From: Methyloprofundus sedimenti
GTDB taxonomy: Bacteria > Pseudomonadota > Gammaproteobacteria > Methylococcales > Methylomonadaceae
Reading direction: 5' to 3'
DNA: 64,000 bases
NCBI RefSeq assembly: GCF_002072955.1
Contig: NZ_LPUF01000001.1
Coordinates: forward strand, 653,001-717,000
Positions 39,578 through 46,233 of the stretch are shown here, in pieces (within the stretch, counting starts at the first letter, position 1; each line of letters opens with the position of its first letter). The translations under genes and the position numbers were made by a program. Below the pieces are notes generated by a model. The model worked only from the letters and a program-made list of their open reading frames with translations, did no database searches and had not been told where the DNA came from.

Positions 39578-39753
39578 TTCACAAAATTCTAATTGTTATT
39601 GTAGTTGCCGCAGAAAGATTATGATTACGGCAAATAAGGACAAATTCACGGCAGACAGTACAAATAGCAAATGAGTTTTTCAACTGGCGGGCCCATTGCG
39701 ATCACAGGCATCAAAGCAATAAAGGGCTCTGCTCCTGAGGTATCCCCACGAAT

Positions 39754-40120
39754 TTAGACCGCCTCCAGCTTCTCAAAATATCCTTTCAACATCGTCTGCG
39801 CTAATTCCAGATAGTCCGCTGGAAGCTCAAACTGAACATATTTACACGCTATTCGAGCAAGGAAAATTACAGAATAGGGTGTTCGATTTTTACCGGTATT
39901 GACCCAGATATGCCGCTCAGTTCCGTACGTTAAAACCCATGGATCAATTAAGTCAACACTGTTTGCCGATTTTGATATAGCTATCAATATAAAGTACGTT
40001 ACAATTTCAGATAAGAAACTTTTATTTAGAGCCTTGCAGAAAGTTAAACTATTACCAGTCAAGTAATTTAACAAGTTGCTGCATGCGGAAAGCTGCTTTG
40101 CAGCTTCTGGTGAGCAAGGC
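39754..40120 (-). other. Possible gene fragment cut by the group II intron
   Basis: The minus-strand frame ending at 39754 has protein-like composition in its last 75 codons (LIDPWVLTYGTERHIWVN, then FELPADYLELAQTMLKGYFE). Its upstream part runs into the attC-like site and then the intron, where no sense can be made of it. It lacks a clear start. I do not recognise the family. It may be the tail of a cassette gene in reverse orientation. Confidence 0.35.
40068..40120 (+). repeat. attC-like site, left part, interrupted by intron copy 1
   Basis: ATTTAAC (matching RYYYAAC) is followed by AAGTTGCT, a central hairpin AAGCTGC-TTT-GCAGCTT, and TGAGCAAGG. The intron begins at about 40121. Sequence after the intron (TTAAGC at about 41959) would complete GTTAAGC, which fits the GTTRRRY right end. 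TTGCT and AGCAA pair as expected for L boxes. Read by eye only. Confidence 0.5.
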
Positions 40121-41960
40121 GTGTGTGTCGGGCATGGCACAGAACTAGAGAGGTGCAAGTCCTCTTGCCAGGTATTTGTGAAGCCGAAGGCTAGCGAAAG
40201 GACAAGGTTAATATCGTGAGGTATTGGCTGAAGGAAGTACAACGCAAAGTTGCGGGGTGACGAACAGGAACTGGATATAAGGTGTGACGTATTCGAGACC
40301 AGTGGGCACGTGACCATGAAGTCTTCCACTCACGCAAGGGATACGTTTTATAAATCCAGCATCTACGCAACGAAAGCTCTGTGCCTTACCCCGAGAGATC
40401 TGTTATATGTGCAAGGAAAGCACTGAAATCAAAGCAATTTGATTTGATCGTATAACAGAAGTCAGCAGAAGACATAGTAGGTGGTTCCTTCCTTGTACCA
40501 CTGAAGGTCAGAACATTATTGGAGAATGAATAAGATGAAGTATTACGCCGTTTTCACAGACCAGTGGACGCAATCTTTCAATTAGAAAGGCAAACCGTAA
40601 TGGGAAAAGCTTATACTCATAGCTCCAGCGAAGAACTATCATTGATGGCGCAAGTATTAGAAAGAAACAATCTACTGCAAGCGCTAAAACAAGTTGTCCG
40701 TAACAAAGGTGTTGCTGGTGTTGATGGAATGACAGTAGAAGAACTGCCTGACTATCTTACACAGCACTGGCCAGACATCAAAGCCAGACTGGAGACAGGA
40801 ATATACAGTCCACAGCCTGTACTGCGAATAGAAATTCCCAAAGCAAACGGCAAGAAGCGAAAATTGGGTATCCCGACGGTCATAGACCGAATGATACAAC
40901 AAGCCATCGCCCAAATTCTTAGCCAGCGATGGGAGCTGCAATTCCATCCCAACAGCTATGGGTTTCGTCCACTGCGGAGTGCCCAACAAGCGGTATGCAC
41001 TGCACAAAGCGAAATAAACAATGGCAAGCAATGGGTGGTTGATCTTGATCTTGAATCCTTCTTTGACCGTGTGAATCATGATAGACTCATGAATACATTA
41101 AAGAGCGAGATCAAAGACAAAACACTGTTGCGATTGATCAATAGCTACCTCAAAGCAGGCATTGAAATTAATGGACAGTATGAGAAAACAACAGAAGGCG
41201 TTCCACAAGGAAGCCCGTTATCTCCATTACTAGCCAATATAGTGCTGAATGAGTTAGATTGGGAGCTGGAAAAGCGAGGCCACATCTTTGTTCGCTATGC
41301 CGATGATTGTCAAATCTATGTAAGCAGTCAGCGAGCAGGTGAACGGGTAAAACAGAGTATAACGTACTTTATAGAACATACCTTAAGACTCAAGGTCAAT
41401 GAAAGCAAAAGTGCGGTAGATCGCCCATGGAAACGAAAGTTTCTGGGTTTTACCTTTAGCCCACGCCGAGGACATAAATTGAAAGTCTCCGAAGCAGCAT
41501 TGGAGAAGCTCAAATATACGGTGAGAGGGCTATGTCGTCGAACACGAGGAAAATCACAAATCAAATTATTGCGGAGCTAAGAAAGTCCCTGCTTGGTTGG
41601 AAAGCATATTTTGGTATAGCCGAAGTAAAGAGTCCGCTACGTGATATAGATAAATGGATAAGACGGAAGTTACGGTGTTATTTATACAAACAGTGGGGTA
41701 GGTCAGGCTACCGAAAGCTCAGGAAACTAGGTGTCAAACGGCAATTGGCTTGGAACACTGCTAAATCAGCGCATGGCCCTTGGCGATTGAGTAATAGTCC
41801 AGCTTTGACTTACGGCTTGTCGAATAAATACTTTACAAACTTGGGGCTACCTTCATTGGTAGCATGATATGAAACGTAATAATGAACCGCCATGGTACGT
41901 GATCCGTATGCCTGGTGGTGTGGGAGGAGAGGTGCTGTGAAGCATCTCCCTATCCCGATT
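40121..41960 (+). mobile_element. Group II intron, copy 1
   Basis: The 5' end reads GTGTGTGTCGGGC, in line with the GTGYG start. Ribozyme-like sequence follows to about 40560 (GAGAGGTGCAAGTCCTC and later GGACAAGGTTAATATCGTGAGG). A maturase gene and a domain V-VI-like 3' end (GTGATCCGTATGCC, then GCATCTCCCTATCCCGAT) complete it. The RT lacks an endonuclease domain. Insertion just after a short hairpin suggests class C. Boundaries were set by comparison with copy 2 and are good to 1-3 nt. Confidence 0.85.
40600..41867 (+). pseudogene. ltrA: Group II intron reverse transcriptase/maturase, frameshifted
   Basis: The RT part (QALKQVVRNKGVAGVDGMTV, YGFRPLRSAQQAV, VVDLDLESFFDRVNHD, EGVPQGSPLSPLLANIVL, FVRYADDCQIY, KFLGF) runs from 40600 to 41580. 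The maturase/X domain and tail (SLLGWKAYFGIAEVKS, WRLSNSPALTYGLSNKYF, LGLPSL) continue in another frame to 41867. The shift lies at about 41545-41562. The catalytic YADD box is intact. An alternative GTG start at 40564 exists. No HNH endonuclease domain is present. Confidence 0.85.
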
Positions 41961-41996
41961 AAGCGTTTTTTTCACTAAACCGAAAAGGTGATCTCT

Positions 41997-42401
41997 ATGG
42001 AATATTTTGGTCTTAATCTGGCTGGAATTCTTGTGGCAACTTTTATAGGAATGGCTTTAGGAGTCTTATGGTATTCGCCGCTTCTATTTGGAAAACGGTG
42101 GATGGAGAGTATTGGAAAAACACCAGATACATTAGGTGGTACTACTTTGCCAATGATAGGTAGCATAGTCGCTAATCTGATGACTGCAGTGGGTGTCTCT
42201 ATTTTATTTTCATTTATTGACGTGGAAAGTTTATCGATGGGTATTGCAATTGGCCTAACTCTGGGATTACTTATTATATTTCCAGCTTTACTATCAGATA
42301 ATCTGTTTTGTGGCTGGGGGAATCAGTTATTATTCATTCAGTCGGGCTACCGTGCTTTAAGTGTTTTGCTAATGTCGGTTGTCTCGGTATATTTTTCGTA
42401 G
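41997..42401 (+). CDS. DUF1761 membrane protein
   Basis: The 134-aa protein has four hydrophobic helices and the DUF1761 pattern: ATFIGMALGVLWYSPLLFGKRWMESIG near the start, and LLSDNLFCGWGNQLLFIQSGYRAL near the end. Function is unknown. The ATG at 41997 follows AAAAGGTGAT, so it is preferred over GTG at 41988. It is the first candidate cassette gene after intron copy 1. Confidence 0.82.
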   Translation: MEYFGLNLAGILVATFIGMALGVLWYSPLLFGKRWMESIGKTPDTLGGTTLPMIGSIVANLMTAVGVSILFSFIDVESLSMGIAIGLTLGLLIIFPALLSDNLFCGWGNQLLFIQSGYRALSVLLMSVVSVYFS

Positions 42402-42405
42402 TTGC

Positions 42406-42446
42406 GCCTAACAAAGTGCTGCTGCGGAAATTAGCTCTAGTTAAAC
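42406..42446 (+). repeat. attC-like site after the DUF1761 gene
   Basis: GCCTAAC (RYYYAAC) at 42406-42412 and GTTAAAC (GTTRRRY) at 42440-42446 bound a 41-nt stretch with a central AGTGCTGCTGCGG. The length is below the common range for attC sites (about 57-141 nt), so it may be a short or decayed form. Confidence 0.45.
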
Positions 42447-42459
42447 GAGTAAATTACAT

Positions 42460-43326
42460 ATGAAATCAGTATCTTTAGTTCTTGGTAGTGGCGGTGCTCG
42501 TGGATTGGCACACATTGGTGTAATTCATTGGCTGGAAGAGCACAATTACCGTATACAATCCATTTCAGGATGTTCTATGGGAGCCCTTATTGGTGGCATT
42601 TATGCCGCTGGGAAGTTGGATGAATTCGAAAAATGGGTTCGCGCAATAACAAAGCTGGAGATTATTACTTTACTTGATATTTCATGGAATAAAAGTGGAC
42701 TGGTCAAGGGCGACAAGATTATCAACACTCTTATCGATCTCGTAGGCGATATGAAGATTGAGGACCTACCGATTAAATATACTGCGGTTGCAGCAGACGT
42801 AAACGAAGAAAAGGAAATATGGATTAATTCAGGGCGACTGTTTGATGCCATACGCGCCTCGATTTCTCTGCCTATGCTTTTTACACCTCACTATTATATG
42901 GGGGCGCACTTAATCGACGGCGGTGTACTTAATCCAGTTCCTATCGCTCCAACGTTCAGTGATAACACAGACATCACCCTTGCAGTAAACTTGGGTGGTA
43001 AATTGATTTCAAATTCTAATGCAATAGATATTAACGATCACCAGAAGAAAAAAAATAACGATGGAATAAATGAAAAAATCAATAATTATATACAACAGCT
43101 TAAGAACAAGATTGATCTCCCACAAGAAATAGACTGGGGAGCCTACGAAATAGCTAATCAGGCATTTGACGCTATGCAAAGTACCATAGCCAGACAAAAG
43201 CTAGCGGCCTATCCGCCAGATAGAAGTATTGAAATCGCGAGGAACGCCTGTGGCACACTCGAATTTGATCGCGCTGATGAAATGATCACACTCGGTTATC
43301 GCAAGGCTCAAGAGAGTTTCACTTGA
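42460..43326 (+). CDS. Patatin-like phospholipase
   Basis: The 288-aa protein has the patatin oxyanion hole SGGARGLAHIG near residue 11, the nucleophile elbow GCSMG near 38, and the catalytic Asp in DGGVLNPVPI near 152, like bacterial RssA-type acyl hydrolases. No signal peptide or membrane segment is seen, so it is probably cytoplasmic. It starts 14 bp after the attC-like site, which fits a cassette gene. Its substrate is unknown. Confidence 0.9.
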   Translation: MKSVSLVLGSGGARGLAHIGVIHWLEEHNYRIQSISGCSMGALIGGIYAAGKLDEFEKWVRAITKLEIITLLDISWNKSGLVKGDKIINTLIDLVGDMKIEDLPIKYTAVAADVNEEKEIWINSGRLFDAIRASISLPMLFTPHYYMGAHLIDGGVLNPVPIAPTFSDNTDITLAVNLGGKLISNSNAIDINDHQKKKNNDGINEKINNYIQQLKNKIDLPQEIDWGAYEIANQAFDAMQSTIARQKLAAYPPDRSIEIARNACGTLEFDRADEMITLGYRKAQESFT

Positions 43327-43357: not shown

Positions 43358-43423
43358 CAGTTAACAATTCGTTCCAGAGCGACATTCGTTAGGTTGCAGC
43401 CACTTATCTCAATCGTTGGATGC
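43358..43423 (+). repeat. attC-like site after the patatin gene
   Basis: GTTAACAATTCGTTCCAGAGCGAC resembles the common left half of attC sites (TAACAATTCGTTCAAGC...). GTTAGGT at 43389-43395 and GTTGGAT at 43415-43421 both fit GTTRRRY. The site is either about 40 or about 65 nt. The left box (AGTTAAC) is an imperfect RYYYAAC. Confidence 0.5.
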
Positions 43424-43445: not shown

Positions 43446-43688
43446 ATGGATATTCAGACAATGACAGCATTCTTTATGTGGTGCACCATCATAAATGGTG
43501 GCATATTCATTTTGTGGACAGTGTTTTCCATATTCGCCCCTGATTTTGTGTATCGCATGCAAAGCAAACTGTTCCCAATTTCCCGAGAAACCTACAACGT
43601 GGTCATTTACTCGTTTTTCGGGTTATTCAAGATCGTCTTTTTGGTCTTCAATGTTGTTCCTTACGTGGCGCTACTGATTGTCGGATAA
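43446..43688 (+). CDS. Small membrane protein, DUF6868-like
   Basis: This 80-aa protein has two hydrophobic helices (about residues 6-27 and 52-78) joined by FVYRMQSKLFPISRETYNVVIY, which I recall as the core of the DUF6868 group. The function is unknown. The ATG at 43446 follows AAAGGAG by about 7 bp, a good ribosome binding site. It is the third candidate cassette gene. Confidence 0.75.
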   Translation: MDIQTMTAFFMWCTIINGGIFILWTVFSIFAPDFVYRMQSKLFPISRETYNVVIYSFFGLFKIVFLVFNVVPYVALLIVG

Positions 43689-43776: not shown

Positions 43777-44520
43777 GTGTGTGTTGGAGATGGCACAGAA
43801 ATAGAGAGATGCAAGTTCTATTGCCAGGTATTCGTGACACCGAAGGTTGGCGAAAGGACAAGGTTAATGTTGATGTTGATCTCGATCTTGAAACCTTCTG
43901 TGATCGTGTGATTTATGAAACGTTTGTGACCATGTTACAGGGTGAGATCCAAGACAGACCTTAATACTCAAGGTCAATGAAAGCAAAAGTGCGATAGATC
44001 GACCATGGAAACGTAAGTTTCTGTGTTTTACCTTTAGCCTACACCGAGGGCATACATTAAATGCCTCCGCAGCAGCACTGGAGAAGCTTAAATATACGGT
44101 GAGAAAGCTATGTTGTCGAACACAAGGAAAATCAATTTAATGCGGAGCTAAGAATGTCCCTGCCTGGTTGGAAAGCGTATTTCAGAATAGTCGAAGTGAA
44201 GAGTCCACGTGATATAGATAAATGGATAAGACGGACGTTACAGTATTATGTATACAAACAGTGGGATAAATCAGGCTACCGAAAACTCAGGAAGCTCGGT
44301 GTCTTGGAACACAGCCAAATCAGCGCATGGCCCTTGGCGGGGCTGAGTAATAGTCCAGCTCTGACTTACGCCTAATCGAATAAATACTTTATAAACATGA
44401 GGCTACCTTCACCGAGAAGAGCATGATATGAAACGTAGTAATAAACCGCCATGGAACGTGATCCGTATGTCTGGTGGTGTGGGAGGAGAGGTGTTGTGAG
44501 GTATCTCCCTATCCCGATTA
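43777..44520 (+). mobile_element. Group II intron, copy 2, internally deleted
   Basis: This 744-bp sequence matches both ends of copy 1 (GTGTGTGT, ATGGCACAGAA, AGGTATTCGTGACACCGAAGG at the left; GTGGGAGGAGAGGTGTTGTGAG and TCTCCCTATCCCGAT at the right). Most of the maturase gene is missing, through at least two deletions: from about the GACAAGGTTAAT segment to the VDLDLE segment, and from the region near NTLKSEIKDK to LKVNESK. The remaining frame is broken. Domain V-VI-like sequence is kept, so it could still be a substrate for a maturase in trans. Confidence 0.85.
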
Positions 44521-44548
44521 GATCACACGGCAACCATTGGAGCATTCC

Positions 44549-45127
44549 ATGCCAACCCTAATACGACAATCCGATTGCCTTGCAGCAGCACTTCGTAAAC
44601 GAGATGCATACACAGAAGCTCACTGCGGCCGTGTTGAATCTCTGAGTGTGCAACTAGGGCTCCGGTGCCACCTTAACGCTTATGAAATCGGACTCCTACG
44701 AGTAGCTTCGAAACTACATGACGTAGGCAAGATCGGGGTCCCTGACTATGTTTTGTTAAAATCTGGAGACTTGGACGCAGGTGAGCTCGAAATAATGCGG
44801 TCTCACGCTGAGTTAGGGCAGGATATCTGTAACAAACTTCCACACAAAGACGCATCAAAGATTAGTCTTTATGTTCGGCATCACCATGAAGCGTTCGATG
44901 GCAGCGGCTATCCGGACGGATTGTCGGGAGAGCACATTCCAATCTACTCAAGAATCATATCCTTGGCAGATAATTATGATGCGATGTTGACAACGCGGTC
45001 TTATCATCGCGCTCGCTCCCATGCGCAGGTCATGGAAATAATGGAGTGTGAATGTGGGAAAAAAATTGATCCTTTTTTATTCGGGCACTTTGAAAAAATA
45101 GTGGCGAGTGCCGCGGGTGCCCCCTGA
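44549..45127 (+). CDS. Stand-alone HD-GYP domain protein
   Basis: This 192-aa protein is a bare HD-GYP domain: AYTEAHCGRVESLSVQLG, HDVGKIGVPDYVLLKSG near residue 54, HHHEAFDGSGYPDGL near 112, and LADNYDAMLTTRSYHRARS. HD-GYP enzymes hydrolyse cyclic di-GMP or 3',3'-cGAMP. There is no receiver or sensor domain. The ATG at 44549 with GGAG 7 bp upstream is preferred to TTG at 44537. It begins 28 bp after intron copy 2 and is closed by an attC-like site, so it looks like a cassette gene. Confidence 0.85.
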   Translation: MPTLIRQSDCLAAALRKRDAYTEAHCGRVESLSVQLGLRCHLNAYEIGLLRVASKLHDVGKIGVPDYVLLKSGDLDAGELEIMRSHAELGQDICNKLPHKDASKISLYVRHHHEAFDGSGYPDGLSGEHIPIYSRIISLADNYDAMLTTRSYHRARSHAQVMEIMECECGKKIDPFLFGHFEKIVASAAGAP

Positions 45128-45130
45128 CTG

Positions 45131-45173
45131 GCCTAAACTGGCGTTCAAGCGGAGCTTCGACTCTACGTTATGC
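45131..45173 (+). repeat. attC-like site after the HD-GYP gene
   Basis: GCCTAAAC at 45131, GGCGTTCAAGCGGAGC in the middle and CGTTATGC at 45166-45173 form a 43-nt site. The left and centre resemble known attC sites, and GTTATGC is the right end seen in Vibrio repeats. The site starts 4 bp after the HD-GYP stop. Confidence 0.55.
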
Positions 45174-45513: not shown

Positions 45514-45890
45514 TGGTGGAGGCGGCGGGGATTGAACCCGCGTCCGCAAGCATTCCGCCTAAAGGTCTACATGCTTATCTCGTGCTTTTTATTTAACTAA
45601 TGACTACCCGCCGAGCCAGGAAAATCATTAGCGATTTCGATTGAATTTAACGTTTTGAACTCCGAACCAAGTTCTGACGCGATCTTATGTAATGTGACTT
45701 CTGAATGTCCCGAAAGACGCTACACGCATAAGTACATGTAGTCAGAAGAATGGTGCTGTGTTTAAGCAGCTAAAGCCATTGAGTAGTTATCGTCATTTGC
45801 GAATACTTGTGTTCAGTAGGTTTTACGTGGTGTACTGTCCACGGCATGCACTCAAGGTTTTGCTACCCACGTCGAAACCAGGTCGCCCCC
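45514..45890 (-). ncRNA. ssrA: Transfer-messenger RNA
   Basis: tmRNA rescues stalled ribosomes with SmpB. The 5' end GGGGGCGACCTGG and 3' end GGGTTCAATCCCCGCCGCCTCCACCA pair as the tRNA-like acceptor. The tag frame starts with GCA at about 45796 and reads ANDDNYSMALAA before TAA. Pseudoknot-like sequences follow. It is a one-piece tmRNA of 377 nt. Its 3' end is a common integration site, and accessory DNA lies directly downstream. Confidence 0.96.
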
Positions 45891-46020: not shown

Positions 46021-46233
46021 TTAGATAACGTTTACGTTTTCAGCTTGCGGGCCTTTTTGGCCTTGCGCAACTGTAAACTCAACTTGTTGGCCTTCGTCTA
46101 ATGACTTGTAGCCGCCTGAGTTATTAATTTGTTGAAAATGTACGAAAACATCGGCGCCTGATTGTTGTTCAATAAAGCCATAGCCTTTATCAGAATTAAA
46201 TCATTTTACGGTGCCAGTAGTTGTAGTAGACAT
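46021..46233 (-). pseudogene. Cold-shock protein with in-frame TGA
   Basis: The frame encodes a CspA-type OB fold of 70 codons: MSTTTTGTVK, stop, then [25 protein letters not shown] and the end [14 protein letters not shown]. Codon 11 (46201-46203) is TGA where the family has an almost invariant Trp (KWFN). One base change, TGG to TGA, explains it. The rest of the protein, both RNA-binding motifs (KGYGFI, VFVHF), the ribosome site AGGA and the terminator are intact, so the mutation is recent or a sequence error. Confidence 0.9.

Follow-up and report, generated by a model that had tools for sequence, protein, structure and literature searches.

The 1837-nucleotide group II intron described here very probably represents a distinct lineage of group IIC retroelements that targets the top strand of attC sites, entering the R′ box after the GT and before the T of the sequence NCGT/TRRRY (slashes mark the insertion point). 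The window, that is the whole stretch of 64,000 nucleotides that was analysed, corresponds to C1:653001-717000 of the 4.29-Mb genome of Methyloprofundus sedimenti (6 contigs). The intron, its target and a second copy of it occupy the following window positions.

40066..40122, plus strand: 5′ part of the split attC, comprising the R″ box ATTTAAC (40066-40072), the L″ and L′ arms and the spacer, and ending in GCGT (attC profile, arm alignment)
40119-40122, plus strand: IBS1, GCGT, at the end of the attC 5′ part
40123..41959, plus strand: group IIC intron, GTGTG...CCCGAT, 1837 nt (limits from the other copies; Rfam)
40308..40311, plus strand: EBS1, ACGT, in the domain I loop GGGC-ACGT-GACC (complementarity to the exons)
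40564..41580, plus strand: RT part of the intron-encoded protein, ORF 1, with an ATG at 40600 (ORF list, NCBIfam/Pfam, PDB comparison)
41532..41867, plus strand: maturase/thumb and C-terminal part in another frame, ORF 2 (Pfam; ORF layout common to the other two full-length copies)
41884..41959, plus strand: domains V and VI (folding)
41960..41964, plus strand: remainder of the attC R′ box, GT/TAAGC (copy comparison, profile)
43779..44518, plus strand: second copy of the intron, decayed and shortened, in pieces 85% and 87% identical, at CGT/TAGAT (DNA search)

That a group II intron is present had been proposed by an earlier sequence-only reading of the window. This was borne out by matches to two Rfam group II intron domain families, RF02001 (40210-40384, 132 bits) and RF01998 (40423-40509), and by matches of the encoded protein to NCBIfam group_II_RT_mat (363.6 bits) and to Pfam RVT_1 and GIIM. 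At E ≤ 0.001, RVT_1 and GIIM were the only Pfam matches, showing a protein without an endonuclease domain. The limits 40123-41959 were retained because the flanks of the copies within the genome are unrelated right up to the intron ends. The limits 40068-41965 given previously do contain the intron but are too wide, as they extend over the 5′ part of the attC and into the first 6 bases of the 3′ exon. The ends GTGTG...CGAT agree with the GUGYG start and the RAY end of class C introns.

Among proteins of solved structure, the best relatives of the RT were GsI-IIC RT (7.8e-106) and chain 7uim_D (1e-93), which we take to be the E. rectale IIC enzyme, whereas LtrA scored 8.9e-42. RT phylogeny and domain V structure had been suggested as means of classifying the intron. 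Both this PDB ranking and the RT tree presented below place the predicted RT in class C, and the region of domains V and VI (41878-41959) folds at -36.7 kcal/mol (z -4.98), a value reached by 0/200 shuffles. Also as class C requires, a predicted stem-loop made of the attC arms precedes the insertion, and the putative IBS1-EBS1 pairing is short, with four positions.

We then considered the site itself. Once joined, the flanks of the intron form an R″ box of the RYYYAAC consensus and an R′ box of the GTTRRRY consensus, with paired arms, and the arm alignment shows extra bases in the 5′ arm. An attC profile was trained on 31 attC junctions, all from other genomes (15 sites contributing to the R″ half, 31 to the R′ half and 12 to the 3′ exon, with arm pairing scored in addition), and was used to score the 2,063 GTT positions found on both strands of the window, from which both introns had been removed. 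With this profile, which favours CGT because 17 of the 31 training sites came from a CGT-requiring pattern (386 of the 2,063 scored positions being CGTT), the junction of the window intron ranked first and that of the decayed second copy ranked second. The third rank was obtained by the first site read on the opposite strand, with a score of 12.3 as compared to 31.6 for the top reading. The earlier suggestion that the two flanks join into one attC is thus upheld. The folding energy of the joined empty site did not exceed chance (DNA z -0.67, 41/200 shuffles equally good). An arm-pairing score compared with shuffles was not significant at the window site either (37/100 shuffles equally good); several clear attC sites also failed in this comparison, and the score was dropped as too noisy in favour of the trained profile. 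A search of 18 genomes of the genus, that of the window among them, recovered no empty allele of this site and only distant matches to cassette genes and repeats; the empty site was therefore inferred from the flanks and from the other copies. For the boundaries, which the earlier reading wished to see defined against empty sites, copies in other flanks were used. Overall, the data support the placement of the window intron inside a predicted attC.

A terminator-targeting class C intron, lying behind a hairpin that merely resembles an attC, is a very unlikely alternative given this ranking. Class C introns are found mostly at terminators and in smaller part at attC sites (PMC4424553, excerpted text), many relatives in the RT set lie behind T-tract hairpins and the window site folds no better than its shuffles, all of which speaks for such an origin. 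However, no T tract precedes the window junction, and CGT precedes each of the 15 clade introns that are linked to an RT and have a legible 5′ end, nearly all of their flanks showing attC arms by eye.

The intron is readable at five places of the genome, four with both junctions, including the decayed one, and one as a 5′ fragment. The copy at C3:102883-104719 is identical to the window intron over 1837 bases and that at C1:1905495-1907331 differs from it by 4 bases. The DNA search returned no further full-length copy in this genome, and among the 18 genomes of the genus it is the only one to carry full-length copies. The junctions are GCGT/TAAGC in the window, TCGT/TAGAT for the decayed copy, ACGT/TATAT for the C3 copy and GCGT/TAGCC for the C1:1905495 copy. 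The 5′ fragment at C1:2429181 is preceded by CAT instead of CGT and has a polarity, as scored below, of -1. The C1:1905495 copy belongs to an array headed by an intact intI gene that is encoded on the opposite strand (C1:1903346-1904296, 436 bits). This position of intI indicates that the copy points along the cassettes.

In all three full-length copies, the RT frame is shifted at the same place, after RTRG, in the short linker that joins the RT part to the maturase part, and both halves are well conserved. In an alignment, the two halves of the window RT correspond to residues 36-339 and 345-445 in the protein of a relative carried by the Aeromonas hydrophila plasmid pR148 (L030). In the region concerned (window 41505-41600), the ATG of the second half (41532) falls within ORF 1. 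An open-frame check of 13 loci, own copies included and some others cut by the locus end, showed at least 7 relatives having RT and maturase in one open frame (L030, L031, L034, L035, L042, L114, L115). The break of the frame argues against present autonomous mobility of the intron. Either the family spread before the frame was broken and the copies were later evened out, or help is given in trans, or the two protein pieces cooperate.

The copies might also have been spread by cassette or homologous recombination of intron-bearing attC sites rather than by retrotransposition of the intron. Their integron or cassette-like surroundings and the RT frame broken in all three full-length copies favour this possibility, which we nevertheless regard as very improbable, since the flanks of the copies are dissimilar as far as the intron boundaries and since the two flanks of the plasmid sister meet directly in other records, which lack the intron. 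Indeed, the flanks of the pR148 intron adjoin in the intron-free record NZ_CP033632.1, where the 84-base 5′ flank matches 981-898 and the 3′ side 898-829, the first matched base of the 3′ side being common to the intron end and to the last base of the 5′ exon. Because the flanks end on neighbouring bases of this record, the insertion in pR148 neither duplicated nor lost bases. Retrotransposition of the intron would account for these observations.

A second family of group II RTs is present in the genome as four near-identical copies (C1:1018104, 1154502, 2180126 and 2418551; L143-L146). In L143, about 1.25 kb separate the upstream region from the RT, and another copy of this second family adjoins a gene for an integron integrase whose reading frame is divided in two.

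To place the window RT among its relatives, RTs were collected from the best 80 of 260 loci and from searches bounded by E-value. The resulting set held 113 distinct segments of at least 240 aligned residues. Segments with stops, with less than 40% identity or originating from two particular loci were dropped, leaving 110, of which 77 representatives were used for the tree. Strand labels were assigned by junction before tree building. All 10 rows with NCGT junctions formed one clade (100/100), inside which no row without an NCGT junction was found. The 7 rows labelled as bottom-strand formed a separate clade (100/99) including Kl.pn.I3, the only published IIC-attC member of the tree. The window RT is the sister of the pR148 RT (70% identity, 100/95). 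The rows of the top-strand clade come from two plasmids, from Marinobacter and from genomes of the family, order and class of the window's genome; the same NCGT junction was also seen in Acidithiobacillus sulfuriphilus. Overall, the tree supports a lineage distinct from the classical IIC-attC clade. The sequence-only reading, which had seen here a group IIC-attC intron, was therefore right as to a class C intron targeting attC, but the RT falls outside the IIC-attC lineage.

Of 369 genomes drawn evenly from the class, 16, the window's own genome among them, have a CGT-linked intron 5′ end. When the exon was left out of the 5′-end pattern, 38 places were found in 25 of the 369 genomes, and 25 of these 38 were CGT places. 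Two of the latter (L178, L193) were not attC-like and were excluded from the profile training and from the extra polarity list used below. The other 13 places were sorted by eye into 7 behind T-tract terminators, 2 behind other hairpins, 3 likely chance matches in coding sequence and the CAT fragment of the window's genome.

The attC being nearly palindromic, two signs were used to identify the strand, the direct context and the asymmetry of the arms. Extra bases are a feature of the L″ arm of attC sites and are visible in the aadA1 site. We therefore scored polarity by allowing bulges in one arm only and by comparing the 5′ arm with the 3′ arm. In the top-strand clade, the 5′ arm (L″) won at 14 of 18 sites, with one tie and three cases against, namely two Marinobacter sites and the decayed window copy (14.5 vs 16.5). 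In the bottom-strand group, the 3′ arm won at 10 of 14 sites, with one tie and three against. The two groups differed with a one-sided p of 2e-4. At 55 other class C sites the outcome was even (20 top, 18 tie, 17 bottom). Nineteen further sites outside the main set, picked by hand, gave 14 for, 1 tie and 4 against. At the window site itself, the polarity signal is modest (27 vs 24). Direct context is given by the C1:1905495 copy in its intI-anchored array and by two relatives in class 1 integrons, those of pR148 behind aadA1 and of pPp47 behind aac(6′)-Ib4, both lying in the gene direction. Taken together, these data support the top strand of attC, at the R′ box and in the cassette direction, as the putative target of the intron. 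The doubt raised earlier about the orientation was justified, as the target is not the bottom strand at R″.

It is very improbable that the intron is an ordinary bottom-strand IIC-attC intron, sitting in the attC of an inverted cassette so that only the gene direction is unusual: the near-palindromic attC, whose R boxes alone cannot tell the strands apart, and the small polarity signal of the window leave room for it, but the RT lies outside the Kl.pn.I3 clade, the top reading scores 31.6 vs 12.3, IBS1 is GCGT and not TTGT, the C1:1905495 copy follows the cassette direction in an intI-anchored array and the plasmid sister stands behind aadA1 in the gene direction.

Insertion into the top strand is accompanied by EBS1-IBS1 complementarity. 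The tetranucleotide ACGT, in the loop GGGC-ACGT-GACC (the last part of which is slightly variable), was found in 15/15 introns of the clade for which the RT is linked and the 5′ end can be read; pairing with the last four exon bases is possible at 4/4 positions, G-U being allowed. The loop pattern matched 15/15 top-strand but only 5/14 bottom-strand introns. In Kl.pn.I3 and L140, ACAA stands at the EBS1 place facing a TTGT exon, with 4/4 pairs. Two genomes of the same genus, G006 (L152, L153, L017, L024, L028) and G008 (L025), carry introns of the bottom-strand type that are cut one base earlier and have CAAT as EBS1. By eye, CAAT pairs at 4/4 positions in three and 3/4 in two of the G006 introns, and at 2/4 in the G008 intron. 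This shift of CAAT in step with the one-base-earlier cut supports the EBS1 assignment, which also agrees with the position of EBS1 in domain I of the E. rectale structure (PMC10190682, in the part available). With five of the bottom-strand exons, ACGT could likewise make three or four of the four pairs. EBS1 alone therefore fails to explain the choice of strand, for which hairpin shape or protein contacts must also be needed.

These features can be combined into a model for insertion. The attC hairpin would serve as the stem-loop required by class C introns, EBS1 ACGU would pair with NCGT immediately upstream of the insertion point, and the T that begins the 3′ exon would pair with a putative EBS3. 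The RNP would read the folded attC, reverse-splice between GT and T, and have reverse transcription primed at the fork. This likely course, from RNP to reverse splicing and fork priming, follows from established knowledge of class C introns. Insertion into R′ of the top strand would therefore leave the intron in the cassette direction, so that it may be transcribed with the cassettes and spliced out of the array transcript. As the insertion splits the attC, the preceding cassette should become hard to excise. On a broader scale, we lean towards the view that class C introns took up attC twice, once per strand. The present clade would be a dedicated specialist of the top-strand R′ box with a fixed EBS1 ACGU, and would have reached the class 1 integrons of resistance plasmids from integrons on the chromosomes of environmental Pseudomonadota. 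This would explain the odd same-direction cases in print.

Several known systems can be compared with the window intron. IIC-attC introns have been defined as a lineage in the bottom strand of attC, opposite to the cassettes, at TTGT/T (PMC7923331, excerpt), and Kl.pn.I3 was located in an attC (PMC5027574, excerpt). The window intron resembles this group (Kl.pn.I3; S.ma.I2 compared by name only) in its class C affiliation, in the attC hairpin and in its insertion within a GTTRRRY box. It differs by its RT, which lies outside their clade, by its junction GCGT/T at R′ and by its direction, the same as that of the cassettes, whereas the IIC-attC introns are inserted at R″ of the bottom strand at TTGT/T with EBS1 ACAA and run opposite to the cassettes. 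With the terminator-targeting introns of GsI-IIC RT and E. rectale it shares the RT class, but its target is an attC and not a terminator. For this terminator type, a stem-loop target and a 4-bp IBS1-EBS1 pairing from a domain I loop were reported (PMC10190682, same excerpt).

The closest plasmid relatives are the introns of pR148 and of a Shewanella algae KC-Na-R1 plasmid (L253), with RTs 70% identical to that of the window, both behind aadA1 in the cassette direction. Unlike the window intron, they lie in class 1 integrons of plasmids and have an intact RT frame. The RT protein accession of pR148 also occurs in pOXA436 (L254) behind a predicted aadA2 instead of aadA1, which suggests that the same intron is found in two cassettes. 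The same-direction intron of S. algae KC-Na-R1 was called odd, and a different invasion process was proposed (PMC9229058, excerpt). Judged by its RT, this case is assigned to the lineage of the window intron and thereby gains a lineage. An Enterobacter cloacae class C intron, in the top strand of attC and in the cassette direction, was described as not belonging to IIC-attC (Rodriguez-Martinez 2012, J Bacteriol 194:150, via an excerpt of PMC7923331). This is one clinical case, compared here by description only, whereas the genome of the window has several chromosomal copies. Among the papers listed in searches of an open-licence library, outside which the 2012 E. cloacae analysis lies, none described a top-strand attC lineage in its title or the start of its abstract.

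As a class C intron lying within an attC, the finding is for the most part of an ordinary kind; single top-strand cases were already in print, and it extends a known theme. Less ordinary is that the intron belongs to a lineage of its own, specific to one strand and carrying a conserved recognition sequence. S.ma.I2 separates downstream cassettes from the array promoter and supplies an outward promoter of its own (PMC8876359, excerpt). A top-strand intron could splice out of the array transcript and may therefore sit in cassette arrays unnoticed. The two lineages form a natural pair for asking how a retroelement distinguishes the strands of a near-palindromic hairpin, a question made approachable by the structure reported in PMC10190682.

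Finally, the following features were found 3′ of the window intron.

41988..42401, plus strand: cassette-type gene, DUF1761 (Pfam)
42406..42446, plus strand: short attC-like remnant, GCCTAAC ... GTTAAAC (read from the sequence; outside the 25 best profile positions)
42460..43326, plus strand: patatin-like gene (Pfam)
43359..43421, plus strand: attC-like site ending in CGT/TGGAT (profile rank 15 of 2,063, with end point 43416 in the scan)
43446..43688, plus strand: DUF6868 gene (Pfam)
44537..45127, plus strand: HD-domain gene (Pfam)
45131..45173, plus strand: attC-like site ending in ACGT/TATGC (profile rank 9 of 2,063, with end point 45168 in the scan)

The four genes have the direction of the intron, as had been noticed from the sequence alone. 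Among the integron-integrase matches listed for the genome, none lies in the 64-kb window. With its cassette-type genes in one direction and no such match, the stretch reads as a decayed attC cluster without integrase. On its 3′ side, the cluster is bordered by a tmRNA gene on the minus strand (window 45514-45890, Rfam); tmRNA genes are common landing places of islands. Further on, a cold-shock-protein-like gene on the minus strand shows by eye an in-frame TGA (window 46201-46203) after MSTTTTGTVK. Shortly before the split attC, a repeated sequence some 200 bases long (window 39721-39921) recurs, whole or in part, at five other places of the genome with 82-97% identity.
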